The notes below the pieces were generated by a model. It saw only the letters and a program-made list of their open reading frames with translations, made no database searches and was not told where the DNA came from. Positions 29,194 to 41,912 of a DNA stretch of 64,000 bases are shown one piece after another. The stretch spans positions 558,001 to 622,000 of the forward strand of contig CANNDF010000003.1 in NCBI GenBank assembly GCA_947503305.1, read 5' to 3'. The first letter of the stretch is position 1; each line of letters begins with the position of its first letter. The DNA is from an uncultured Dokdonia sp. Lineage in GTDB: Bacteria > Bacteroidota > Bacteroidia > Flavobacteriales > Flavobacteriaceae. The translations under genes were made by a program, and so were the position numbers.

Positions 29194-29847
29194 TTATTGA
29201 AGTAATCGATGTTCCATAGCATAAAGCACAGCGCCTATACGCGTATTGACTCCGAGTTTTCTGAATAAATCGGCTCTCCTATTGTCGATAGTTTTAGGAC
29301 TCAGACTCATTTCATGTGCAATCTCTTTATAAGTCAGATCTGTTCCACATATAAAGTTTAAAAATTCTTGATCTTTTTCTTTAAAAAGTATGGCTGTATC
29401 TGAAGTATCTATTGCACGAAAACGCGCTTTTTCTCTCATGTCAAGATCAACAACATCACTGTAGACAAAACGCCCTTGACTTGCATAATTAATTGCTTGA
29501 TTTAATAATGAAGGTTCTACGTCTTTAAGTAAATATCCTTTACAACCATAGCGTATCATTCGTGTGATGGTATCTTCATCATCTTCCATGGTGATCGCTA
29601 GAACATGAATATCCGGGTGATTTTCTTTGATCCATAACATGGTGGCTTTACCGTCCATGATGGGCATTCTTACATCGAGTAATACGACGTTGGGTTTTTC
29701 ATTGCCAGCATTGATATAATCTACAAATTCTTTTCCATTACTAGCAACAAAGGTTACATAGGTATCTTCAAAACTAGAAATAAGCGTTTTTAACGCTTTG
29801 GCAAAAAGAACATGATCATCAACTATGACTACTTTTTGTTGACTCAT
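29194..29847 (-). CDS. NarL/LuxR-type response regulator
   Basis: A 217-residue regulator with receiver domain 1-125 (phospho-acceptor D58 in VVLLDVRMPIMDG, K in GYLLKDV) and a C-terminal LuxR HTH (DLTYKEIAHEMSLSPKTIDNRRADLFRKLG). It overlaps the histidine-kinase gene by 29 bases, so the two are a cognate pair. The operon's own upstream region has palindromes whose half-site matches the NarL heptamer, so it may regulate itself. Confidence 0.93.
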   Translation of the reverse strand: MSQQKVVIVDDHVLFAKALKTLISSFEDTYVTFVASNGKEFVDYINAGNEKPNVVLLDVRMPIMDGKATMLWIKENHPDIHVLAITMEDDEDTITRMIRYGCKGYLLKDVEPSLLNQAINYASQGRFVYSDVVDLDMREKARFRAIDTSDTAILFKEKDQEFLNFICGTDLTYKEIAHEMSLSPKTIDNRRADLFRKLGVNTRIGAVLYAMEHRLLQ

Positions 29848-30631
29848 TAGGGATGGTATACGTTACAGTAATTTGAGTACCCTTTTGGGGAATACTCTTC
29901 ATAGCAAACTGTGCGTCAATCAATGTAGCTCTGGTCTTCATATTGATAAGTCCTGAACCGCCTTTTACGGTTTCTTCAAAACCTATTCCATCATCTTCTA
30001 TTATAATGGTTAATGTCTCTTTTTGATACGAAACATTTATAGTAAGATGATTCGCTTGCGCGTGTTTAATCACATTACTACAACTCTCTTGCACTATCCT
30101 AAAAATAATAATTTTTTCCTTTTTTCCTACAAAAAATGGATTTCCACTTACAAATAGTTGTGATTTGGTTTGTGAGAAACGATTGATTCTATCTATTTCT
30201 AATTGAATTACTTCGGGTAATGTCCAGGTAGCAAGTACTTCTCCGTTTACAGCTTTAGAAAGCCCTCTCACCTCTGTAAGGCTCTGTTTTACAGTTTCTA
30301 ATGCCTCTTTAAAGACAGACCGCTTTTCTTTTTCTAATGTATTGACACCCATATTCAATTGCATTTTTGCAACAGAAAGTAACTGTCCTACATTGTCATG
30401 TAATTCCATGCCCACATTTTTAAGCGTTTCTTCTTGAATTTCGTTTTGAGACTCAATAAGTACTTGTTGAAATCGCTGTTTGTCTACAGCTTGTTGTATT
30501 AAAAGTTTGTTTTTACGCTTTTGAAAAGTGAAGAAAAAAACAATAAATAAGATCACCAATACAATTACTACTACTATAAAGTAGATGACAAGGAGGATTT
30601 CGTGTTTGGTGACTTGTTGAACCAGTAGCAT
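29819..30631 (-). CDS. Sensor histidine kinase (HisKA_3 type)
   Basis: A 270-residue kinase. One membrane helix (about 12-35) is followed by the HisKA_3 dimerisation box with phospho-acceptor H78 in MELHDNVGQLLSVAKMQLN. The ATPase domain has EDDGIGFEE and GGSGLINMKTRA. It has no extracellular sensor domain of its own. The gene begins 58 bases inside the preceding membrane-protein gene, in another frame, so sensing may be by that partner. Confidence 0.92.
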   Translation of the reverse strand: MLLVQQVTKHEILLVIYFIVVVIVLVILFIVFFFTFQKRKNKLLIQQAVDKQRFQQVLIESQNEIQEETLKNVGMELHDNVGQLLSVAKMQLNMGVNTLEKEKRSVFKEALETVKQSLTEVRGLSKAVNGEVLATWTLPEVIQLEIDRINRFSQTKSQLFVSGNPFFVGKKEKIIIFRIVQESCSNVIKHAQANHLTINVSYQKETLTIIIEDDGIGFEETVKGGSGLINMKTRATLIDAQFAMKSIPQKGTQITVTYTIPNESTKSSHS

Positions 30632-31323
30632 CGTAAGAAAGCAAATATAAACATTCCATATAAGAAGTAATTTCCAAAAGAAAGAATGCTCTTATAATAT
30701 TTAATAAATACAACCTCTTCTTTTGTGTAAAAAACACTGCTTAAAAAAATTGGAGTCATACTCAAATAATATAATAGAAGTGTAAAGGAAATATAAAATG
30801 GTAGCGAGCTATTTACTTTCAAAATATCATTACTATTAAGAAGTTCGTAGTAGTAAAATGATATTGCGCAAATAATAATTAATAAGCCAGTAAAATCAGT
30901 ATATTGAGAAAAAGCTTTAAAAAATATATCTGTTACAGATATATTTATAATTGTAGTAATCAAGAATATATATACTGAATAAGTAAGGATTTTTTTGAAA
31001 ATTTTATTTTTTAATTGCTTTTTAAAATAAATAACTATTATAGAATATATTACGATACTATATATATTAAATATCCAATAGTTTTTAAGTAGTTTTTGAT
31101 TATTAATAAAAAAATCCGATTTATCTATCCCAATATGATCTATATATCTTGGATAATGACCTATAAATTCACAAAACACTCCTATCCACAAAAATCTTAA
31201 TAAATAGTCAGAAGCTTCGAAATTAATAGTTTTTCTATATTTTATAAAAGTAATTGTGGCCACTAACGCAGCCACAAGTTCCAGTTTGAAAATATTAGAA
31301 AGTAATGATAAGTATTCTATCAT
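30574..31323 (-). CDS. Multi-pass membrane protein, possible sensor partner of the kinase
   Basis: A 249-residue protein with about seven hydrophobic helices, rich in Ile, Phe, Tyr and Ser. No known domain was recognised. The last helices run into the region where the kinase gene starts. It is encoded between the small protein (5-base gap) and the kinase, so it is likely to be translated with both and may be the membrane input module of the pathway. The ending, NKSPNTKSSLSSTL, is polar. Very AT-rich compared with the neighbours. Confidence 0.65.
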   Translation of the reverse strand: MIEYLSLLSNIFKLELVAALVATITFIKYRKTINFEASDYLLRFLWIGVFCEFIGHYPRYIDHIGIDKSDFFINNQKLLKNYWIFNIYSIVIYSIIVIYFKKQLKNKIFKKILTYSVYIFLITTIINISVTDIFFKAFSQYTDFTGLLIIICAISFYYYELLNSNDILKVNSSLPFYISFTLLLYYLSMTPIFLSSVFYTKEEVVFIKYYKSILSFGNYFLYGMFIFAFLRCYWFNKSPNTKSSLSSTL

Positions 31324-31328
31324 TATTT

Positions 31329-31694
31329 TTATGGATTGTATGTTTTAGGAGGATCTCCTCCTTCATTTCTATTATAAGGTTGTATAGAATATACATTTTC
31401 TGCATCGATAGAGCCATCTACTGTTGGTGACATAAAAATAGTACTTTTTGGATCTTTACCCTCAGAATAGGCTCCTAAATATACGCGTATTCCCGTGGCA
31501 GTAATTCCTTGATCAGCCGCTTCGCTTTTAATATATGCGATATAGCTTTCAAGATCTTCAATACTCATAGTATATTCACAAGTATCTGTATACCCCAGGT
31601 CTTTTTTTAAATCTACTCCTCGAGTTACTGCCCATTGATTAAACAAAGTTTGAGCTTCTTGAGGTGTAATACAATTGTCAGGTGCTTTTCCCAT
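31329..31694 (-). CDS. Small hypothetical protein at the head of the two-component operon
   Basis: The start at MGKAPDNCITPQEAQ gives 121 residues; an upstream ATG at 31727 would add 11 and is less likely, because an A-rich leader precedes the chosen start. A helical N-terminus (TPQEAQTLFNQWAVTRG) leads into a segment ending YIKSEAADQGITATGIRVYLGAYSEG. Family not recognised, though the ITATGIRVYLGAY segment looks conserved in kind. It has no signal peptide. As the first gene of the operon with the kinase and regulator it may be a soluble component of the signal path. Confidence 0.65.
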   Translation of the reverse strand: MGKAPDNCITPQEAQTLFNQWAVTRGVDLKKDLGYTDTCEYTMSIEDLESYIAYIKSEAADQGITATGIRVYLGAYSEGKDPKSTIFMSPTVDGSIDAENVYSIQPYNRNEGGDPPKTYNP

Positions 31695-31802
31695 AATAAA
31701 TATTTTTTTAGAATTAGTATACTTCAAAGTACATAAAAGCCATCAACTTTCAAACAAATCTGTAAATAAATAACAAGTAAAAATTAAAAATTGTAAGAAA
31801 AA

Positions 31803-31926: not shown

Positions 31927-32229
31927 ATGGGAAGAGCCAGTAAATCAGAAAGACTAACTTCAATAAGACCTATAGTTATGCCTACTACCATAACCTTTAG
32001 TAAGCTTACATTAAAAAAAATGTATGCAAAAAGCAGAAGATTACGTATTGCACAATGGAATGATGCCTTAGATTATGCAGAATTTATCCACGCACTATGG
32101 AATACAATGCTCAATCATGATGAGCTTAAAAATGATGCTATCCAATTACAAGAAATGCTTGGTAAAGGAGATGCCATTCAGTTATTGAGTGACACCGTTT
32201 TGGAGCATAGAAGGTTAGTCAATCAGTAA
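31927..32229 (+). CDS. Orphan small protein divergent from the two-component operon
   Basis: A 100-residue basic-to-neutral protein, mostly predicted helical: TLKKMYAKSRRLRIAQWNDALDYAEFIHALWNTM, then ELKNDAIQLQEMLGKGDAIQLLSDTVLEHRR. Family not recognised. The N-terminus is basic and has no signal peptide. It reads away from the palindrome pair at 31803-31859 and converges on pxpC, overlapping its 3' end by 15 bases. It is a candidate target of the NarL-type regulator. Confidence 0.6.
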   Translation: MGRASKSERLTSIRPIVMPTTITFSKLTLKKMYAKSRRLRIAQWNDALDYAEFIHALWNTMLNHDELKNDAIQLQEMLGKGDAIQLLSDTVLEHRRLVNQ

Positions 32230-33084
32230 CAGGGATAATTGATCTCCTTGTTTTTTCTGTGCTAATACATCCATAGAAGTTTCCGATAGTTGTAAAATAC
32301 GAGGATATCCTCCTGTGGTTTGACAATCCCTCATTAATAAAATAATATTTCCAGAAGGAGTTAATTGTACGATACCTGGTACTACTGGCCCAGTTACTAT
32401 AGAAGGAATTTGATCAAATAATTTTTGTTCTAACTGTATAGCCATACGATTCCATAACTTAGATACTGAAAAAACAGTCTCTTTTAAAAAATTAATATGT
32501 CTTTCACCTAATACGTTGAATTCGGGGCCCATATGGGCCTCAATTTTTTGTATGTGTTCTTTGTTAGATTGCTGTACCGTTTTTAGGTTTTTTATGCCTA
32601 CGCCTTTAAATGTTCCATAATTAGAAGCTCCTATCTGTATCCTATCCCCTTTTTTTAATGTTGATGTCTCTGTAACTGGGCTATACATACTCTGACTTCC
32701 TAATACTGGAATCGTAAGCAGCCCTCCTGAAATAGCAAGATACCCCCTACATCCGCTTATAAAATGTAAGCACTTTAACATGTCTCCTTTTTTTGCGATA
32801 TATACTTTACCTGTTGTTACAGCAATGCCATTTATATATGCTTTTATATCCCCTCCAGTAATTACAAAATGTCTTTCACACTCAAATTGTATTGTAGGTC
32901 CCATTATAGTAAATTCTATTACTGCAGTATGCTCTGGATTATTTACCAAAGCATTTGCTATACGCCATGCCTTTCTATCCATTACACCACTTTCCGGAAT
33001 TCCTAAGTGTGCATATCCATAACGTCCTGCATCTTGAATACTGCTGTACAATCCTGGATGTATAATTGTAATGCTATCTATCAT
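32215..33084 (-). CDS. pxpC: 5-oxoprolinase subunit PxpC
   Basis: A 289-residue member of the biotin-dependent carboxyltransferase-like (KipA/PxpC) family: opening IIHPGLYSSIQDAGRYGYAHLGIPESG, then LSGGLLT-type and the ending RDCQTTGGYPRILQL. PxpA, B and C together are the ATP-dependent bacterial 5-oxoprolinase, hydrolysing pyroglutamate to glutamate. It overlaps pxpB by 11 bases. Confidence 0.9.
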   Translation of the reverse strand: MIDSITIIHPGLYSSIQDAGRYGYAHLGIPESGVMDRKAWRIANALVNNPEHTAVIEFTIMGPTIQFECERHFVITGGDIKAYINGIAVTTGKVYIAKKGDMLKCLHFISGCRGYLAISGGLLTIPVLGSQSMYSPVTETSTLKKGDRIQIGASNYGTFKGVGIKNLKTVQQSNKEHIQKIEAHMGPEFNVLGERHINFLKETVFSVSKLWNRMAIQLEQKLFDQIPSIVTGPVVPGIVQLTPSGNIILLMRDCQTTGGYPRILQLSETSMDVLAQKKQGDQLSLLLID

Positions 33085-33799
33085 ATTGATAAGATTCTAT
33101 GTGCATACTCCCTGTTGCAAAAGCCGCTTTCATTGCGATATGTGTTTGCTTATCTATTGCATAAAACTGAATAACATCTCCCGCTTTGAAAGGTGTAGGA
33201 GGTTTTGATGTCGGGTTAAAAAAGGAAATAGGACTATTGCCTATAACATGCCATCCTCCAGGGCTTTTTTGAGGGTATATTCCTGTCTGATTTCCTCCTA
33301 TAGCGACACTGCCCTTTGGTACGCTTTGTCGAGGGGTTGACTTACGCTCAATAGATAGTCTTTGATCTAACCCTTCTAAATATGGAAAACCTGGTAAAAA
33401 ACCCATGAAATATATAGTATATATAGGTTCTGTGTGTCGAGATATGATTTCAGAAATTGTACATTTTTTTGTATTTGAAACTTCTATGATATCATTCCCA
33501 AATTCAGGGTCATAACATACAGGAATACGGAATAGTGTGGATGTTTTTATAGGTACTGTCGTTATGCTGTTTACTATTTCGCGAAAGCGGACTTCTACAT
33601 CAACCACATCCAAAGTATGTCTCACATCTTTGATCAAAAGTTCTGTATACGTATGCACAATTTCTACATCATATAATGCAGACAATTTTTTCTTTACAGC
33701 TAGCAGATAATATAGTAGTTCTTGTGAAGGCGTATACTTCCATTGAAGAAGCCAGTTAGACTCCCCCATTTTATGTATACGAAGTGTATCCTCAATCAT
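33074..33799 (-). CDS. pxpB: 5-oxoprolinase subunit PxpB
   Basis: A 241-residue KipI/PxpB-type protein with PVCYDPEFGNDI, YTIYFMGFLPGFPYLEGLDQRL and KSPGGWHVIG. The family member KipI also inhibits kinase KinA in Bacillus, but next to PxpA and PxpC the oxoprolinase role is the more likely one. A degenerate copy of the dispersed palindrome codes for RFRE. It begins with one base shared with the pxpA stop. Confidence 0.9.
   Translation of the reverse strand: MIEDTLRIHKMGESNWLLQWKYTPSQELLYYLLAVKKKLSALYDVEIVHTYTELLIKDVRHTLDVVDVEVRFREIVNSITTVPIKTSTLFRIPVCYDPEFGNDIIEVSNTKKCTISEIISRHTEPIYTIYFMGFLPGFPYLEGLDQRLSIERKSTPRQSVPKGSVAIGGNQTGIYPQKSPGGWHVIGNSPISFFNPTSKPPTPFKAGDVIQFYAIDKQTHIAMKAAFATGSMHIESYQYDR
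33575..33588. repeat. Degenerate dispersed palindrome inside pxpB
   Basis: The left arm has two mismatches and the right arm is intact. Encodes VRFRE, the third frame in which the repeat is used. Confidence 0.5.
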
Positions 33800-34530
33800 C
33801 AGGTAACTTTAATTTGATGTTTTTTAAACTCGGTATGCAATGTATCTAGAATCTCAAAAGCTGTACTTGTATCTCCGTGAACACATAGCGTATCTATCGT
33901 AAAAGGAATTTTCTTTCCAGTTACTGTATGTACCATTTGTTCTTTAACCATTGGTAATACATGTTGTATGACTTTATCCGGATCTTTAATCAATGCCTTG
34001 GGTTCTGATCTCTGAACTAGCGTATAGTCATCTTTATAATTACGATCTGCAAAGCCTTCTGTACACGTTCTAATCTTAGATTGAGCAATATTTTCTATTA
34101 CAGATTTATAGGGTACATATAACAGTAATGTGTCATCTATATCACAAATCACATCGATAATAAGCTTAGCTATTTCTTCATTGACTGCTGCTTGATTGTA
34201 CAAGGCACCATGAGGCTTTATGTGATGTATTTTTTGATGTTGCCTTTCGGCGAAAGTTTTTACTTTCCATATCTGATCTGATACACTTTGTGTTAATTCC
34301 TTCTTTGATATATTAAGAGTTTTACGGCCAAAATTGCTACGATCAGGGTAGCTGGGATGTGCTCCTATTTTGACTTTATGTATGGATGCCAAACGAATCA
34401 CTTCTTGTAGTGTTGTATCATCTCCTGCATGTCCACCACATGCGATATTACATGAACTCAAAAATGGAAGTAACGCGGCTTCATTTCCAATACCTTCTCC
34501 AACGTCGCTATTTATATCAATAGTGTACAT
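33799..34530 (-). CDS. pxpA: 5-oxoprolinase subunit PxpA (LamB/YcsF family)
   Basis: A 243-residue protein with the family opening DINSDVGEGIG and ACGGHAGDDTTLQE, then IGAHPSYPDRSNFGR, HIKPHGALYNQAA and CVHGDTSTAFEIL near the end. Conserved Asp and His residues suggest a metal site. First of the three oxoprolinase genes, 2 bases after the Nramp-fold transporter. Confidence 0.92.
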   Translation of the reverse strand: MYTIDINSDVGEGIGNEAALLPFLSSCNIACGGHAGDDTTLQEVIRLASIHKVKIGAHPSYPDRSNFGRKTLNISKKELTQSVSDQIWKVKTFAERQHQKIHHIKPHGALYNQAAVNEEIAKLIIDVICDIDDTLLLYVPYKSVIENIAQSKIRTCTEGFADRNYKDDYTLVQRSEPKALIKDPDKVIQHVLPMVKEQMVHTVTGKKIPFTIDTLCVHGDTSTAFEILDTLHTEFKKHQIKVT

Positions 34531-34532
34531 TT

Positions 34533-35756
34533 TTATAATACATCAAATACCTTTAATATACTACGCAATCCCAAACCAAAAACAATAAGCCAGATCAAAA
34601 TACCTAGTATATTTTGCCACTTCTTGTTTACATATGTTCCTAAAAGTTCTTTTTTATTGGCCATCCAGATTAAATACCCAGCAATGATAGGCAATAAAAT
34701 ACCATTAGCTACTTGTGCAAATTTGATAATCTCTACGGGTTTATATCCTGATGATGAAAAAAGGATTCCTAAAACCAGAATAAAAGCCCATACTATTCTA
34801 AATTTACGGGCCTTAATGTCTTTTTTCCAACCTAAACATCCCTGTACTACATATGCTGCTGCCAATGGTGCTGTTATAGCCGAAGTCAATCCAGCAGCTC
34901 CCATTCCTACTCCTACAAAATAGCGTGCATATTCTCCAAAAAGAGGTTCCAGACTTTTTGCAAGATCTCCAGCGTTTCTAATCTCACTCCCTTGAATAGC
35001 GGCTGCACATATAATGATAGCCATTGATACAAGCCCTCCTAAGATTACTGCAACAAATGTATCTCGTCTTGCTATAGCTAGGGATTCTTTTCCTTGCCAT
35101 TTTTCTGTAACTAAAGAGGCATGTAAAAACAAATTATAAGGGACGACAGTTGTTCCTACTAATGCTATAATTGTCAATGTACTATCCTTTGGAAATGATG
35201 GAACAAAACTTCCTTTTAATACTCCAATAATATCAGGTCGGGTAACTATCGCTGTAATGATAAACGCCATGCTCATAAACAAAACAAGCCCTACTAAAAC
35301 TCGTTCTAATACCTTATAATTTCCTATAAAAAGAATGATTGCTGCCAGTATGCCGATTCCTAAACTCCATCCATTAAGTGACAAGCTCCCCCATTGAAAT
35401 GCGCCTGAAAATCCTAGTGCTTCAACTCCTAGTACACCTCCGCTTATATTTCCTGCTTCGTATGCTGCATTTCCGATCACAATAGCACTTAACATCAATA
35501 AAATAACAATAATACGAGCTATGGGATGTCGCATCTGAGTCCGGATAACGGTAGCAAGTCCTTTATTAGTGACTAACCCTATACGAGCAGCCATTTCTTG
35601 TAATACAATGGTTGCAATAATAGATAAAACCATTGCCCATAGCAATGCATAGCCATAAGAAGCGCCAGCTATAGAACATACTGTTACTGTTCCCGGGCCT
35701 ATAAAAGCGGCAGCAATGAGAACACCAGGACCAGAAATATCAAACCATTTTTTCAT
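34533..35756 (-). CDS. Nramp-fold transporter lacking usual metal ligands (with pxpABC)
   Basis: The start at MKKWFDISGPGVLIAA gives 407 residues; an upstream ATG at 35807 adds a poorly matching leader. About eleven membrane helices of the Nramp/SLC11 fold (GYALLWAMVLS, YNLFLHASLV). In typical Nramps helix 1 has DPGN and helix 6 MPH; here they are GPGT and VPY, so the Asp, Asn, Met and His that hold Mn2+ or Fe2+ are replaced. It heads the pxp operon with a 2-base gap, as YcsG does in the Bacillus ycsFG-kipIA cluster, so the substrate may be a small organic acid such as 5-oxoproline. Confidence 0.8.
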   Translation of the reverse strand: MKKWFDISGPGVLIAAAFIGPGTVTVCSIAGASYGYALLWAMVLSIIATIVLQEMAARIGLVTNKGLATVIRTQMRHPIARIIVILLMLSAIVIGNAAYEAGNISGGVLGVEALGFSGAFQWGSLSLNGWSLGIGILAAIILFIGNYKVLERVLVGLVLFMSMAFIITAIVTRPDIIGVLKGSFVPSFPKDSTLTIIALVGTTVVPYNLFLHASLVTEKWQGKESLAIARRDTFVAVILGGLVSMAIIICAAAIQGSEIRNAGDLAKSLEPLFGEYARYFVGVGMGAAGLTSAITAPLAAAYVVQGCLGWKKDIKARKFRIVWAFILVLGILFSSSGYKPVEIIKFAQVANGILLPIIAGYLIWMANKKELLGTYVNKKWQNILGILIWLIVFGLGLRSILKVFDVL

Positions 35757-35862
35757 AGAAATTAATAGACTAAAGGATATAAATCCACAAAAGGAAAGGT
35801 ACTCCAAAATTTACAATTAATTGCTAACTCATAATCAATGACACTGTCTTATAAGAAACAGA

Positions 35863-35897
35863 AAACGGATTTACTGTCTATGACAGTAAATCCGTTT
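35863..35897 (-). terminator. Strong terminator after the five-gene accessory operon
   Basis: A 16-bp perfect stem (35863-35878 with 35882-35897) with a three-base loop. On the minus strand it follows the stop of the 1138-residue enzyme by 34 bases and is followed by TTTTC. Confidence 0.85.
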
Positions 35898-35931: not shown

Positions 35932-38900
35932 TTAACAGCGTCTGCGTACACGTATGTTATTAACAATATAGTTACCACGTATCCGTGCACCTGCACTATT
36001 GGTTCTATGTTCAATAGCTCCATATTGATTTGCACGATTTACGGTTCCATCTACATATGGGATAAATACGTTTTTATATCCAGCTCTATTACTTTGACCT
36101 TGAGCCAGGACTCTTGCTTCTTGTATTCCATAAGTAAAATTAGAAGTAGGCATTTGTAAGAGAGAATTTACAATCGCATAGAACGTATTAATATTAAAAT
36201 GTTTAGGATCTCCATGTCCGTAACGAACTCTACCACTACTCGTATGATATTCTACAGATCTATCTACTTCTCTGTGAATTGTAGTCTCTATAAGTCTTCC
36301 TTTTCTAATACAACAAATAACATATGCATAGGCTAGCAACTCATATTGTCGATATGTATAATACGTTCCTGCATCTTTTACATTAGGGACTGCCGCATTA
36401 AGTTGAGGGTGTCTGGTAAGTTCTGTATGGACAAAACATCCATTGGAACCACGTTCTATTTTTACACCAGATCCTCGTTCATTCCAATCCTTAGCAAGTA
36501 TTGCATTATTAATATTTAACCAAAAGTGTATTCCTTTTCTAGAGGCTCTACTTCTGGTAATATCTCTAGTAACGGCTGTATCGTGTATTACAAAATAATT
36601 TGCTGTTACAGGTAAGTCAGGATTTCCCAGTATTTCATTGGCTACTGCTCCGTGACTTTGTATAAAATTGCTTTGAAAAGCAGCTTTATCAAACCATTCG
36701 GGTAGTGGTAATAGACAAAGGTTATGTTGCGGTTCTGAGGCAAAAAATGTCTTTTCTAACTTCTTCTCATTAATCCACTGTAGCTTTACCTCATCTGTCC
36801 ATGTAAAATTTTCCCCAGGGGGTGATGATACCCCTGTAGTTGGAGGCCTATATTCCCAATGCCAGGGTTCATCAATACGTGTATTTTGATAAAAATGATA
36901 ACGAGCAGCATTGGTAGTTAACCAATTCCACAGTTGTGTTCTCCTCCAAGCATTTGTATAGGTAGTACGGGTTCTATTACGTAATGTTACCCCATTCTCA
37001 GTATTTCGGATATCAATAGCAAGCCCTTGATTATGATTACTAAACCCTGGAGTTGCAATTCTTCCTCTGATATAGCGTGCTAGATATTGTTGAGCAGCTA
37101 CTCCATGTTCTCCTCCATTGAGTGTACGTCTATGGCTTTGTGTAGCACTATAATATTGATTTATAAAATATCTATTCCACAACCTAAATTGATGTGACGC
37201 CGAACGATAGGCACTTGTAAGCCCTATAGTAACATTAACTCCTTGAGTAGCTATGGCACGACGTACATCTTGAAACATTAATCTACAAGATGCTGCCGCC
37301 GCTGTTTTTAATTGATATCTCCCTTCTACAGTAGCTAGTTGACTTGCAGGGACATCGGCTACAAAAGTTCCTCGAGAAGAAGAACGTCTAAGATTGATAT
37401 CATATACATTCCGCATAAAATTAATTTGTGCAGAAGTGGCCCCTGTCCATGTTAATCCACTTGAAGGAAGCGTCTCTTGATATGCATTTTCACTATGTTC
37501 TAAAAAGGGCATATAACTAGGTATATATTTTTTGACCCGCTCTGTATATGTTTCTAATACGTTATCCATTACTTCGGGAGTATACTGAGGGGTTGTATGT
37601 GTAGTATGCTGTTGATATGGTCTCATGTCTTTATTTTTTTTTCTGATTATTGACTTAATATTATTTTGGAATTTTTGAAGGTTGATATATCCATTTCCAA
37701 TGCGATGAGAATTAGATACGTTCTTATTATTATGTAATGATTTGAATAAAAGACGTCTTGTCTCTTGTATACTTAATAATTCATCACTCTCTTGAAAAAG
37801 TCTAGCTATTAATCCCGCTATAAATGGGGAAGCCATACTAGTCCCAGATTTCATTGTTAGATTTCCTTTAGAATAGGCTTCTTTTCTGGATGCTGATTTT
37901 GCTGCTATAATCTGAACCCCTGGGGCTACTACATCTGGTTTTATACGACCATCTGCGGTAGGGCCACTACTGCTAAACTTTGCTATCTTTTTTATAGCAC
38001 TCATATCATCATAGGCCCCTACAGCAATTGTATAAAACCCATTACATATAGTCCCCAGCGTCACTTTTCTATCTACATCGACTGGATTGAATTGAGACTG
38101 TGTTCGTATAGAACCATCTCGTTCTATCCATGCATTATACCTGCCATCTACGACATTATCCCCTTGGATTTTTACTTTCCACTGTAACGGTGTCGAATTA
38201 TTATATAGAAAAATATCTATGTGATTTAAGCCCGTGTTTGGCTCATGGCTTCTATGATATATTTTTCCTATTTCTTCTCCTACATTATTAAGGATTGTTG
38301 CATTTTCGCCTCGAGCTGAAACAACTTTTTTATATCCTTTTCCATATAAAGTAACTGTAAAACTATCTTTTCCGGGATACCATATTTCTAGCTCATTTGT
38401 AGTATAATCATTAGGTTTTATCTCCCATTGAAGCCATTTTTCTCCACCGTGTAGTACTCTACCTGATGCATGTGCATTTACGGTATAGTAATTACCTGCG
38501 CTCTGTACAATAGCTCTTCCTTTATTAGCTAATAGGAATTTATCAAAAGCTTGCTCTACTAATGTCATTCCTCTATGCGCATCTCCATGACTTCCAACAC
38601 TAAGATTAATAACTAGTGGTTTTTCTTGTGCAACTGTGTGCATAAAATCTACGCTTTCCAGTAGCCTGCTTTGATCTCCTAATGAAAATGTTTCTGCGGC
38701 TTTTGATGTGCCTAGATGTACAGCAACCAGATATGAAGATGGCGCATTGCCTTCATCTCCTACACTACCATTACCGGCAGCAATATCTAGGACATGCGTC
38801 CCATGACTACCTATACCAGATGCGTCTGCTATAGCAGGGTGATAGTTCAATGTTTTAAAAGGCGTCTTAGATTGAAGCGCTTCATTGATCATTGCAGCGG

Positions 38901-39348
38901 TATATACTTCTCCATATCCATAGGGATTAGATCCGTCATAGGGTGCTGCTTGATTCCAAATTGCCAGAAATCGGGTTGAATCATCTTGATTTCTAAAATT
39001 AGGGTGTGTAAAGTCAAATCCCCAATCTGCAATGCCTACAACTACTTGTTTTTTTAAAACAGCTTCAGAGACTATTGATTTCTGAAGCTGTTTCTTTCTC
39101 TTCTTTACAACAGGAATTGAACGAACTAATGCTTGATTTACAGAACGCGATGCTTTAAGGCTTGCTATTCTCTTATCTGCCCAAATAGTATAAATATCAT
39201 TTCTTTGAATCCTACCTGTAACGATAGTATCAAAAGCTGTGATAACCCTAAAATTTTCGGGCACTGTATTAGGTTTTTGTAAACGAGCAATGACCTCTAT
39301 CTCATCTTCTTTCTTACCTTCAATTAACTGTTGTAATGCAGGATCCAT
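35932..39348 (-). CDS. Subtilisin + VanY-type peptidase + amidase-like fusion enzyme
   Basis: A 1138-residue protein. A S8 protease covers about 100-560: catalytic D108 (GIADWGFD), H182 (GSHGTHV), N286 (SAGNYY) and S504 (KSGTSMASP). An M15B VanY-like carboxypeptidase covers about 640-835: SAYRS, zinc ligands H772 and D779 in SNHNQGLAIDI, and H830 in EPWHWEY. An amidase-like domain covers about 850-1138: FVIHDTA (H922) and CFVHTE (H974). All three catalytic sets look intact. There is no signal peptide and no T9SS tail. Protein and peptidoglycan cleavage in one chain suggest an enzyme for lysis, predation or release. It is the last gene of the operon, 6 bases after the acidic membrane protein; the C-terminus is RVRRRC. 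Confidence 0.85.
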   Translation of the reverse strand: MDPALQQLIEGKKEDEIEVIARLQKPNTVPENFRVITAFDTIVTGRIQRNDIYTIWADKRIASLKASRSVNQALVRSIPVVKKRKKQLQKSIVSEAVLKKQVVVGIADWGFDFTHPNFRNQDDSTRFLAIWNQAAPYDGSNPYGYGEVYTAAMINEALQSKTPFKTLNYHPAIADASGIGSHGTHVLDIAAGNGSVGDEGNAPSSYLVAVHLGTSKAAETFSLGDQSRLLESVDFMHTVAQEKPLVINLSVGSHGDAHRGMTLVEQAFDKFLLANKGRAIVQSAGNYYTVNAHASGRVLHGGEKWLQWEIKPNDYTTNELEIWYPGKDSFTVTLYGKGYKKVVSARGENATILNNVGEEIGKIYHRSHEPNTGLNHIDIFLYNNSTPLQWKVKIQGDNVVDGRYNAWIERDGSIRTQSQFNPVDVDRKVTLGTICNGFYTIAVGAYDDMSAIKKIAKFSSSGPTADGRIKPDVVAPGVQIIAAKSASRKEAYSKGNLTMKSGTSMASPFIAGLIARLFQESDELLSIQETRRLLFKSLHNNKNVSNSHRIGNGYINLQKFQNNIKSIIRKKNKDMRPYQQHTTHTTPQYTPEVMDNVLETYTERVKKYIPSYMPFLEHSENAYQETLPSSGLTWTGATSAQINFMRNVYDINLRRSSSRGTFVADVPASQLATVEGRYQLKTAAAASCRLMFQDVRRAIATQGVNVTIGLTSAYRSASHQFRLWNRYFINQYYSATQSHRRTLNGGEHGVAAQQYLARYIRGRIATPGFSNHNQGLAIDIRNTENGVTLRNRTRTTYTNAWRRTQLWNWLTTNAARYHFYQNTRIDEPWHWEYRPPTTGVSSPPGENFTWTDEVKLQWINEKKLEKTFFASEPQHNLCLLPLPEWFDKAAFQSNFIQSHGAVANEILGNPDLPVTANYFVIHDTAVTRDITRSRASRKGIHFWLNINNAILAKDWNERGSGVKIERGSNGCFVHTELTRHPQLNAAVPNVKDAGTYYTYRQYELLAYAYVICCIRKGRLIETTIHREVDRSVEYHTSSGRVRYGHGDPKHFNINTFYAIVNSLLQMPTSNFTYGIQEARVLAQGQSNRAGYKNVFIPYVDGTVNRANQYGAIEHRTNSAGARIRGNYIVNNIRVRRRC

Positions 39349-39354
39349 TGGTAT

Positions 39355-39996
39355 CTACTTTGAATTTCCGCTTTTACGACTTACCATTTTGGGTTTATCT
39401 TCTATAGTGCCTTGGGTTATTTCTCCTGGAGTAGTATCCATTTTAAACTCTATAGTTGCTGGAATGGTCCCTTTTTCAAAATACTGTTGTACTAGTTGTT
39501 TTTCATAAAAAGCAACTATAGTTACATCAGTATCTTTAGGGTAAAATAGATTTGCATTTCCACTTACGTCAGAGATAGCAAAATCAAATGATTTTTCTTT
39601 TAATAAGCGCTTGAAATCATCTCCTAATTTCCCATAGATAGATGCAAAATTTACTCTATCGAGGGAGATTCCATTTTCATTTATTGCTTTAATATTTACT
39701 ACAGGTGATGAATGCTCATTTGTAGTACATGTCTCTGCGGTTTCTTCACCTTCAGTAGTAGACCCTTCTTGAGGTTTTTCTTCTTCCTGCTGTTGATCTT
39801 GGGTTGCTTTAAGAGCAATTAGCTTTTTTGCTTCTTTATCTACCATAAGATATCCTAACATAGGAATTGTAGGTGCTGCGATTCCATATACCAATGCTTT
39901 TGTCATAAAATCTGAGGGCACTGATATCTCCTGAGCTTCTAGCTCTTCTTTCTTTTTATTTGCTAAAACATAGTTCAGCAGCATATAATTATTCAT
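39355..39996 (-). CDS. Acidic, single-helix membrane protein of the accessory operon
   Basis: A 213-residue protein. A helical N-terminus (LNYVLANKKKEELEAQE), one membrane helix at about 33-52 (KALVYGIAAPTIPMLGYLMV), a Gln/Glu-rich low-complexity linker (66-95), then a C-terminal domain of about 110 residues with FASIYGKLGDDFKRLLKEKSFDFAISDVSG. Family not recognised. It may anchor the neighbouring products to a membrane or particle. Spacing is 7 bases from the charged-block gene and 6 to the fusion enzyme. Confidence 0.7.
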   Translation of the reverse strand: MNNYMLLNYVLANKKKEELEAQEISVPSDFMTKALVYGIAAPTIPMLGYLMVDKEAKKLIALKATQDQQQEEEKPQEGSTTEGEETAETCTTNEHSSPVVNIKAINENGISLDRVNFASIYGKLGDDFKRLLKEKSFDFAISDVSGNANLFYPKDTDVTIVAFYEKQLVQQYFEKGTIPATIEFKMDTTPGEITQGTIEDKPKMVSRKSGNSK

Positions 39997-40003
39997 GATA
40001 CTT

Positions 40004-40834
40004 CTATTTTTTAGATAATAATAACACTAACATTAATGGGTCTATTCCTCCATTTCCTCCTGATAAAGCAAGGATCGGTAACAATTGATTCATATCTCCA
40101 TTTCCAGAACCTCCTAGTCCTCCACTAAGCAATAGTGGTAATAAAGCTGCCGAAGAGTCTGCCTCTGTAGAGTTTACCTGAATATTCTTAGTCACCTGTC
40201 CATCAGTAATATTCATAGATTTAATATTTGGACCAGAAATAGCATTGATAAGATTCATCATACTCATGCTTTCTACTTTCTTATCGATAGCACTGATCTT
40301 AGTATTGAGTTTTACTTGATTTTTTGAGATCTTATTAAATCCTGCAGCTAGTTTTTTATGACCAGATACTAATCGTTTTACTTTGCTATTTGTGCTATGA
40401 AGTCTTCGCTTAAGCGTTCCTACATTTTTACAGCATGCATTTGATCTTCTAGGTTTTCTTCCTCTACCGCGTCTACGGTTTCTTCGTGCTCTTCTACGTG
40501 CTCTACGTCGTGCTCTACGTCGTGCTCTTCTACGTCTTCTACGACGGCGACCACGTCGTTCTGGAGATGCTTCATCATCTACATGTTCTGCATCCAAAAT
40601 GCCATCATCATCATAGTCTTCATCATCGTAATCTTCGTCGTCGTAGTCTTCATCATCATAATCTTCGTCGTCGTAATCTTCATCATCATAGTCTTCATCG
40701 TCATAATCTTCGTCATCATAATCATCGAAGTTATCATAAAATTCATCTTCTAGATACAATCCGTCATTAAACGAATCTGTAGGTATCAGTTCTTCTTGAA
40801 GGATACCTTCGTCATTAAAATTTGTTGTTGTCAT
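40004..40834 (-). CDS. Charged-block protein: (YDDED) repeat plus poly-Arg tract
   Basis: The start MTTTNFNDEG (276 residues) follows an A-rich leader; an upstream ATG at 40903 would run back into the previous gene. Residues about 37-76 are eight units of YDDED, coded by a 15-base tandem repeat. Residues about 91-128 are an Arg block, 28 Arg of 38, with RRRA repeats. A cysteine pair (NACCKN) and a helical region (to about 205) follow, and a Gly/Leu-rich hydrophobic C-terminus. Opposite charge blocks in one chain favour self-association or condensates, and the Arg block could bind nucleic acid or cell wall. Family not recognised. Confidence 0.75.
   Translation of the reverse strand: MTTTNFNDEGILQEELIPTDSFNDGLYLEDEFYDNFDDYDDEDYDDEDYDDEDYDDEDYDDEDYDDEDYDDEDYDDDGILDAEHVDDEASPERRGRRRRRRRRARRRARRRARRRARRNRRRGRGRKPRRSNACCKNVGTLKRRLHSTNSKVKRLVSGHKKLAAGFNKISKNQVKLNTKISAIDKKVESMSMMNLINAISGPNIKSMNITDGQVTKNIQVNSTEADSSAALLPLLLSGGLGGSGNGDMNQLLPILALSGGNGGIDPLMLVLLLSKK
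40606..40725. repeat. 15-base tandem repeat coding YDDED units
   Basis: Eight units in phase, such as CATCATCGTAATCTT and CGTCGTCGTAGTCTT. Third-position changes vary among units and keep the protein sequence, which points to selection for the acidic repeat and not to a new expansion. Confidence 0.9.
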
Positions 40835-40850
40835 TTTTTCACTTTTTAAA

Positions 40851-41138
40851 TTAAACATTATCAAATCGGTTATTGGCATTCTTACTGTTTTGAATAGCCT
40901 CAAGTTCCTCTAGTACCTCTTCATGATCTTCTTTTAGGTCTTCATAGACTTCTATGAGATCTTCATTAATTCTTTTAAGTTTTAGAAAGGCATTTTTAAG
41001 TTTTTGAAACTCTCCTGTGAGAGCTTCATACTGTTCTTTATAATCGGTATCAGAGTTATTTTCTTTTAATAAATTCATCACCGAGGCTAGCTTGGGATCG
41101 TTCATTAATTCTGCTGGTAATACGGTATTTGTGTCCAT
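40851..41138 (-). CDS. Small coiled-coil protein of the accessory operon
   Basis: The start MDTNTVLPAELM gives 95 residues; the upstream ATG at 41171 overlaps the previous gene and is not preferred. Residues about 35-85 form a charged coiled coil (YEALTGEFQKLKNAFLKLKR ... LKEDHEEVLEELEAI). Family not recognised. It may be a scaffold or assembly protein for the larger products. Spacing is 20 bases after the glycine-zipper gene and 16 before the charged-block gene. Confidence 0.7.
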   Translation of the reverse strand: MDTNTVLPAELMNDPKLASVMNLLKENNSDTDYKEQYEALTGEFQKLKNAFLKLKRINEDLIEVYEDLKEDHEEVLEELEAIQNSKNANNRFDNV

Positions 41139-41158
41139 CGGTATCTTGTTTTTATGGT

Positions 41159-41884
41159 TTAGTGAGCGCACTCACAATGTGTTTCTTCCATATCATCATA
41201 CATCTCATCTTCATAATGATAAGCTTCATAATCATCGTGATATTCGGGAGTAGGATAGCTTTCTTCAAAAGAGACATCCAGTAGATCTTCTGAGAGTTGT
41301 TTCATGGTATTGACATGGCTAATAAAACTTTCTGAGGTTCTAGGGGTACGTGATGATTGTGTAGGTATTACGGCTCTTAATAATTGAATCAAATACTCTG
41401 GATTATTAATAAGTACGAGTAATTGTTTTCCTACTGGCGCATAGCCCGCAGGGGTTCCTGCTATATTTCCAGAAGGGCTTGAAAAAGCAGGTGACGGAGC
41501 TTGTCTTCCTTGTAGTGATGGTGCAGGTTGGTTTCTAGATGCTTGCTGTCTTCCTGCACCTCCAGAACTAGCGATAGCTCCTCCTAAAGCTCCTCCTAAC
41601 TTTGCGCCTACGGGACCTCCTATTACGGCGCCTGCTGCTGTTCCTATAATCGGTGCGGCTTTCTTTAATATGGGCGCTACGACTTTCAGTCCTTTTTTTG
41701 CAACGTTGACTAATCCACTTAAGAACCCTTCGGCTTCTTCTTCGGTCATATCATAAGTGGCCTCTGCAAGTAACCTGTCTATTTCTTCTCTGGATAGTTG
41801 ATCGGTATGATCTGTAAGCACATACTCTGCTGTCTGGTACCAACTCTCTATAAATTCTTCTTGATTTGATATACTACTTTCCAT
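41159..41884 (-). CDS. Glycine-zipper, amphipathic protein heading the accessory operon
   Basis: A 241-residue protein. An acidic helical N-terminus (1-55), a basic amphipathic stretch (KKGLKVVAPILKKAAPI, 63-79), a glycine-zipper at about 80-110 (GTAAGAVIGGPVGAKLGGAL), a Pro/Gln/Ser-rich linker, a short helical part (VLINNPEYLIQLLRAVI) and an acidic C-terminus ending HCECAH. Glycine zippers often insert in or form pores in membranes; that is an inference. No signal peptide. First gene of the operon, with a -7 box 20 bases before the start. Confidence 0.7.
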   Translation of the reverse strand: MESSISNQEEFIESWYQTAEYVLTDHTDQLSREEIDRLLAEATYDMTEEEAEGFLSGLVNVAKKGLKVVAPILKKAAPIIGTAAGAVIGGPVGAKLGGALGGAIASSGGAGRQQASRNQPAPSLQGRQAPSPAFSSPSGNIAGTPAGYAPVGKQLLVLINNPEYLIQLLRAVIPTQSSRTPRTSESFISHVNTMKQLSEDLLDVSFEESYPTPEYHDDYEAYHYEDEMYDDMEETHCECAH

Positions 41885-41904: not shown

Positions 41905-41912
41905 CAAAAGTA
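41905..41912 (-). promoter_or_regulatory. -7 promoter element of the accessory operon (TACTTTTG)
   Basis: The minus strand reads TACTTTTG, an exact TAnnTTTG box, 20 bases before the first ATG. A TTTG lies farther upstream than the usual distance, so the -33 box is weak. Confidence 0.5.

Follow-up and report, generated by a model that had tools for sequence, protein, structure and literature searches.

A rare gene block of small proteins without assigned families and a subtilase, often joined to exchangeable wall-acting domains

The subject of this analysis is a five-gene operon, g1-g2-g3-g4-S8, in a 64,000-nucleotide stretch of DNA from an uncultured Dokdonia sp. of the Flavobacteriaceae (contig CANNDF010000003.1, positions 558,001 to 622,000; hereafter the window), the last gene of which encodes a subtilase-VanY fusion enzyme. 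We find that g1, g2, g3 and often g4, together with a subtilase whose catalytic triad is intact, form one conserved block as judged by sequence, and that this five-gene association exceeds chance. Many of its loci add predicted peptidoglycan-cleaving or peptidoglycan-binding domains, or phospholipase-D domains, either as part of the subtilase chain or in genes after it, and these additions appear exchangeable. Five tightly packed open reading frames (ORFs) run on the minus strand of the window from 41884 to 35932: g1 (41159..41884, 241 amino acids (aa)), g2 (40851..41138, 95 aa), g3 (40004..40834, 276 aa), g4 (39355..39996, 213 aa) and the fusion enzyme (35932..39348, 1138 aa). The ORF positions bear out the tight operon of the initial annotation with two starts corrected, ATG 41138 being the best start of g2, and ATG 40834, not TTG 40903, that of g3; with the preferred starts, the intergenic gaps are 20, 16, 7 and 6 base pairs (bp).

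Loci were gathered with the protease alone. In a tblastn search of plasmids with the enzyme, Cupriavidus, Gemmatirosa and Streptomyces give protease domains of 38-41% identity, and the DNA upstream of these proteases holds gene strings that resemble the window's in character and are similar to each other; their similarity to the window is weak (g1, E 0.002; g3, E 0.001, within 20 proteins). A scan of genome contigs, with a stretch of the protease insert as query, matches 119 stretches, 84 of them relatives, of which the best 80 were retained; with 8 loci from plasmids and the window, these make up 89 protease loci. The clade comprises the 44 loci that reach 475 bits or more against the protease profile, and the sisters are the 45 below, a cut set after the scores were known and with no wide gap at that point (479.9 vs 465.8). 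In the tree, 44 of the 45 sisters lie on a separate branch (SH-aLRT 100), and the remaining one, L008, has an alignment row that is 10% filled and an unsure placement.

Hidden Markov models of g1-g4 were iterated from four seeds, the window and three plasmid loci, and run on plus-strand ORFs upstream of the protease in both groups. They find g1 in 40, g2 in 39, g3 in 39 and g4 in 22 of the 44 clade loci, with at least one of g1-g3 in 41; when the four seeds are left out, the corresponding counts are 36, 35, 35 and 19 of 40, and 37. Each of g1-g4 is found in 0/45 sisters, 39 of which have at least 3.5 kilobases of upstream DNA, and the co-occurrence of the small genes with the enzyme, chosen beforehand as the point on which the initial annotation would stand or fall, holds. 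Gene order is invariant in clade loci, and the D, H, S triad and oxyanion Asn columns of the protease are intact in 44/44 members. The three clade loci in which g1-g3 are not found are L029 and L036, with 378 and 843 bases upstream (too short), and L042, a miss with 2158 bases. Carriers of g1, g2 and g3 together come from nine phyla (Bacteroidota, Pseudomonadota, Cyanobacteriota, Actinomycetota, Acidobacteriota, Chloroflexota, Planctomycetota, Myxococcota and Gemmatimonadota) and include Flavobacterium enshiense DK69, Hymenobacter montanus BT664, Pseudomonas indica NBRC 103045 and Streptomyces canus NBC_01002. Two loci, L025 and L027, are nearly identical and another two, L047 and L048, identical; the protease domains of the latter pair lie in two metagenome-assembled genomes, one labelled Saprospiraceae and the other Flavobacteriaceae, that probably represent a single organism placed in two bins.

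The window's copy is firmly placed in the family by similarity of g1, g3 and the protease, because profiles built without the window find its g1 (39 relatives, E 4.5e-34) and its g3 (38 relatives, E 2.5e-33, with high bias), each as the sole match among 359 window ORFs. General window-excluded profiles of g2 (38 members) and g4 (21 members) match none of these ORFs, and Bacteroidota-only profiles reach the window g2 coil at E 1e-4 and the N-part of window g4 at E 9e-8; g2 in the main, and g4, are assigned provisionally by position and weak similarity. A search with the g2 profile covered 672 genomes, 292 of the phylum of a cyanobacterial carrier and 190 each from the families of two Bacteroidota carriers, and gives 3, 1 and 1 matches, respectively. 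Four of the matches recover already-known carriers, three of which had contributed rows to the profile, and this shows that the search works; the fifth, genome G1005, is a previously unseen carrier that holds g1-g2-g3-g4-S8 in order. Among 299 genomes of the window's family, 6 match the protease at E <= 1e-40 and 3 of these are of the clade type, namely the window's and two at 39-44% identity, both with g1-g2-g3 upstream. The block is sparsely and unevenly distributed, and the mixture of phyla in the tree suggests that it has probably moved horizontally.

The fusion enzyme had been described as a triple-enzyme protein, and two of its three parts stand. The Peptidase_S8 assignment is backed by both profile and triad (Pfam E 4.4e-34; catalytic motifs at residues 108, 181 and 502), as the VanY M15 DD-peptidase assignment is by profile and motifs (residues ~624-857, E 2.5e-16; motifs at residues 772 and 827), where we take HxxGxAxD and WHWE to be VanY / M15B DD-peptidase motifs; a linker lies at residues ~540-620, and the enzyme is the only product of the operon above a Pfam cut-off. 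The amidase-like third domain finds no support from profiles, PDB or hhalign: residues ~860-1138 match nothing in Pfam or NCBIfam and no PDB sequence up to E 10, have no relative among the viral, plasmid and phage collections or in a further 246 genomes, and are not matched by hhalign (probability 0.2) to a true Amidase_2 pair. We treat this stretch, whose single-sequence AlphaFold model has a pLDDT of 30 and whose His-rich motifs are suggestive only, as a C-terminal domain without an assigned family. Germination proteases, CspB included, rank first in a PDB sequence search of the subtilase, with an alignment over residues 100-519; NCBIfam gives Csp and mycosin matches far under cut-off (CspBA, 138.6 bits against 1250), and PADLOC gives partial S8 matches only, over 110-150 residues (subtilase, 75 bits; IetS, 29 bits). 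By eye, an MDPxL-like protease start without a signal-like stretch is seen in 38 of the 44 clade ORFs, and the earlier statement that the enzyme has no export signal holds in so far as the same visual inspection detects no obvious Sec signal at the N-termini.

Beyond the protease domain, clade members carry extensions of 2-1633 aa, some of them shortened by contig ends, with a median of 725 aa compared to 33 in the sisters, where 41 of 45 are at most 72 aa. These extensions are far more varied than the protease itself, with similarity in 222 of 703 extension pairs as opposed to 946 of 946 protease-domain pairs, and a wall-acting, wall-binding or phospholipase-D domain lies above cut-off in 17 of the 38 extensions scanned (37 clade ones of at least 60 aa, and the window's). 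Downstream of the protease, 38 proteins from 23 clade loci give Pfam matches to VanY (7), Muramidase (2), M15_4 (2), Amidase_2, M15_3 and PG_binding_1 (1 each) and to unrelated singles, among the 25 of 40 family rows covered; 38 proteins from 20 sister loci, a control with about half as many residues, give 8 families, none wall-acting, Lactamase_B (9) and PLDc_2 (2) among them. The separate downstream VanY relatives are in seven loci (L013, L014, which is distant, L017, L023, L031, L038 and L044), and only in the window, among the loci examined, does the VanY variant with its helical N-terminal extension form one chain with the protease. The enzyme's proposed tie to wall breakage is supported by exchangeable wall-acting domains that occur in the clade and are missing from the neighbours of the sister control; by these profile matches, wall-directed cargo is present in about half. 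Sister loci have a feature of their own, a ~430-aa gene directly downstream of S8 in L060, L061, L063, L065, L066, L072, L079, L086 and L088, which, with Lactamase_B in 9 of the 38 downstream proteins, is possibly a second conserved pair.

Some of these domains would also suit a developmental complex that trims the producer's own peptidoglycan locally, in cell separation, filament breakage or the formation of spores or cysts. PG-binding, OmpA and PASTA domains are found among extension or g4 domains and could tether such a complex to the wall, and the protease is Csp-like; however, a spread of 3 in 299 family genomes, with one new carrier per 672 by g2, fits housekeeping or development poorly, as does the cross-phylum mixing in the tree, and we judge remodelling of the own wall improbable.

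The small proteins share a characteristic architecture across loci. Window g1 has a helical N-terminal segment, a glycine zipper (residues ~76-110), a Pro-rich linker and an acidic tail, and is short at 241 aa compared to a family mean of 338 aa; a model of L038 g1 predicts N-terminal helices, a glycine zipper, a linker and a C-terminal domain. g2 is a coiled coil with a Cys4 knuckle, which is strict in 37 of 39 proteins, variant in one more and missing only from window g2. Members of the g3 family have an acidic run, an Arg block and a coiled coil, with Leu/Met-rich ends in most; window g3 has an acidic repeat, a poly-Arg block, a coiled coil and Leu/Met-rich C-terminal segments, and its composition is as extreme as first described (24 D/E per 30 residues, 13 R per 15). 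In g3 of L037, L046, L047 and L048, a different, possibly immunoglobulin-like tail replaces the Leu/Met-rich end, by eye. Window g4 consists of a short hydrophobic N-part and a C-part without an assigned family, and the label "membrane anchor" given to it is weak, because its hydrophobicity is marginal (maximum KD19, 1.62). Pfam identifies PASTA in the C-part of both cyanobacterial g4 copies scanned (L038 and L023), and PASTA is seen by eye in Cupriavidus g4.

The small products had been said to belong to no recognised family, which is confirmed for g1-g3 in that all copies tested (window, L038, L025 and L032) stay below the curated cut-offs of Pfam; the closest approach is that of YL1 to the acid/Arg stretch of window g3 (E 4e-6, 27.5 vs 29.2 bits). 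Neither NCBIfam, PHROGs nor PADLOC gives anything convincing for the small-protein copies submitted. PHROGs matches are weak for g1-g3 and none for g4 copies, with those of g1 partial and at E 6e-4 or weaker, one of which (E 0.007) is named endolysin; window g1, g3 and g4 and L038 g1-g3 match no PADLOC model, and the match of L038 g4 to PD-T4-6 runs over a region that includes its PASTA part.

These features bear on programmed self-lysis or abortive infection, in which g1 and g4 would permeabilise the inner membrane in a holin-like manner and protease-activated wall enzymes would lyse the producer, perhaps so that public goods are set free or a phage is arrested. Consistent with such a device are the glycine zipper of g1, N-termini without obvious signal peptides by eye, a cytosolic wall hydrolase that resembles the logic of an endolysin, and the regulator genes that adjoin the block in many loci. 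Against it, g1, like g4, is hydrophobic only marginally, no PADLOC model matches the g1-g3 copies submitted, and exchangeable cargo would be superfluous for this purpose; we regard self-lysis as a real but minority possibility.

The regulators recur in more than one form. Divergent from g1 in L043, L099 and L100 runs a series of four genes, for a lipoprotein-like protein, a membrane protein, a kinase and a LuxR-type regulator, and a kinase and regulator do likewise in L049, L013 and L017; in other loci the upstream regulators are BTAD-type (annotated so in L006) or, by sequence reading, sigma54-type. The window has a possible partner signalling module of four genes on the minus strand (29194..31727), in the same order as in L043, L099 and L100: a 132-aa relative of the lipoprotein-like protein, a 249-aa membrane protein, a HisKA_3 kinase and a LuxR-type response regulator, the last at 29194-29847. 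The latter three match their counterparts in L043, L099 and L100 at E 8e-17 or better, and the 132-aa protein more weakly (E 3e-7 to L100). The membrane protein is single-copy in the window's genome and is present in 77 of 149 genomes of the family, so the link between module and operon is one of position. CT_A_B, CT_C_D and LamB_YcsF genes, presumably 5-oxoprolinase-like, and an Nramp transporter lie between the two (32215-35807). In the two Hymenobacter loci, L013 (4001-5494) and L017 (3816-5290), the divergent kinase-regulator pair is 24-28% identical to the window's, perhaps a separate pairing. As for control elements of the operon itself, the intrinsic terminator described initially is present as a 16-bp stem on the minus strand (35863..35897). 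The claimed -7 box exists as TACTTTTG on the minus strand (41905..41912), 20 bp before the g1 ATG, and from the consensus we take it to be a Bacteroidota -7-like element; but the pattern is common in the window (60 matches vs 89 expected by shuffling), so the box alone is no proof of a promoter.

A route of delivery was sought in 26 selected carrier genomes, some of them drafts, with two sheath families: VipB matches in 6 and Phage_sheath_1 in 10 (6 over cut-off), and neither in 12. The window's genome is among the 14 with a match and contains elsewhere a 625-aa Phage_sheath_1-like frame (G000:C1:850589-851254, E 1.9e-5) that is over cut-off together with its neighbours, possibly a contractile system. 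Wall-acting cargo is typical of contractile-injection effectors, and the 14 matches would suit an effector set of a type VI secretion system or an extracellular contractile injection system, with g1-g4 as adaptors; the 12 carriers with neither family speak against this, as does the lack of prominent injection genes among recurrent neighbour clusters, and we consider it very improbable.

The reading that we prefer is tentative, and we put it at somewhat less than an even chance: the block would be a horizontally spread, regulated, protease-activated envelope-lytic effector module that attacks other cells more probably than its own. By analogy with the action of CspB on SleC, the subtilase would process itself and activate specific substrates, maturing the attached wall enzymes or setting them free. 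Made in the cytoplasm, g1-g4 would form a scaffold, assemble with the enzyme and bring it to the envelope or through it, since visual inspection shows no obvious Sec signal in any part. Upon a signal through a nearby-encoded regulator, the complex would leave the cell by lysis or another route and cut cell walls, more probably those of others; the window's cargo would then be a VanY-type DD-peptidase and one domain without an assigned family. Several observations weigh against this proposal. Among the 38 scanned extensions, 21 have no wall-acting, wall-binding or phospholipase-D domain above cut-off, and 6 clade proteases extend by less than 60 aa. The g1 model has no significant match to known folds, and neither an export route nor an immunity gene or holin came to light, with profile searches that covered sheath genes only. 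The 12 carriers with neither sheath family remove the simplest delivery machine, and the window copy itself, with its short g1, Cys4-less g2 and weakly related g2 and g4, may be degenerate or specialised.

In a more specific form, g1-g4 would be the structural components of a hitherto undescribed non-phage particle or translocon, present in nine or more phyla, that loads a subtilase able to activate itself, together with exchangeable envelope-lytic enzymes, and delivers them to other cells. We consider this form unlikely; if true, it would be a new class of antibacterial weapon. Secretion or conflict systems new at the time have been recognised before from conserved multi-gene blocks of unfamiliar families whose effectors are exchangeable. 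The system is tractable, being small and carried by named strains, with few genes, known protease active-site residues and a measurable wall target, and it would define g1, g2 and g3 protein families apparently missing from the Pfam and NCBIfam copies used.

We call the system categorically new, its enzymes belonging to known families, because no library used here names g1-g3 convincingly and our literature search found no description of the five-gene system among the records listed. Of the known systems nearest to it, the sister proteases are of the same S8 subfamily but lie outside the operon clade, and differ from it in having none of g1-g4, short extensions in most cases, frequent Lactamase_B neighbours and no wall enzymes. 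Phage holin-endolysin cassettes are similar in that wall hydrolases without an obvious signal stand with small, partly hydrophobic partners; no phage genes are prominent among the recurrent neighbours, with no profile search aimed at them. Polymorphic toxin and conflict systems, such as those built on a peptidase and an effector-associated domain (EAD), share a constant core and variable effectors that include wall-acting domains, and the accessible portion of their description does not mention g1-g4 (PMC7159879). No EAD, NTPase, NucA or immunity partner appears among recurrent neighbours or in the 25 of 40 downstream family rows, with no profile search made for them. The nearest solved sequences to the subtilase are the Csp proteases (CspB/CspBA) of Clostridia, which act with SleC. 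To our knowledge, g1-g4 have no counterpart in the Csp system, and none of the 44 clade loci bears a Bacillota label in record titles or tree labels. According to the accessible part of the source, a ~130-aa insert in CspB, a stretch that the subtilase alignment spans, forms a jelly roll, and efficient cleavage of SleC needs CspB activity (PMC3567191). As in CspB/SleC, the operon couples a protease to a peptidoglycan hydrolase; unlike there, the hydrolase is fused to the protease or encoded nearby.

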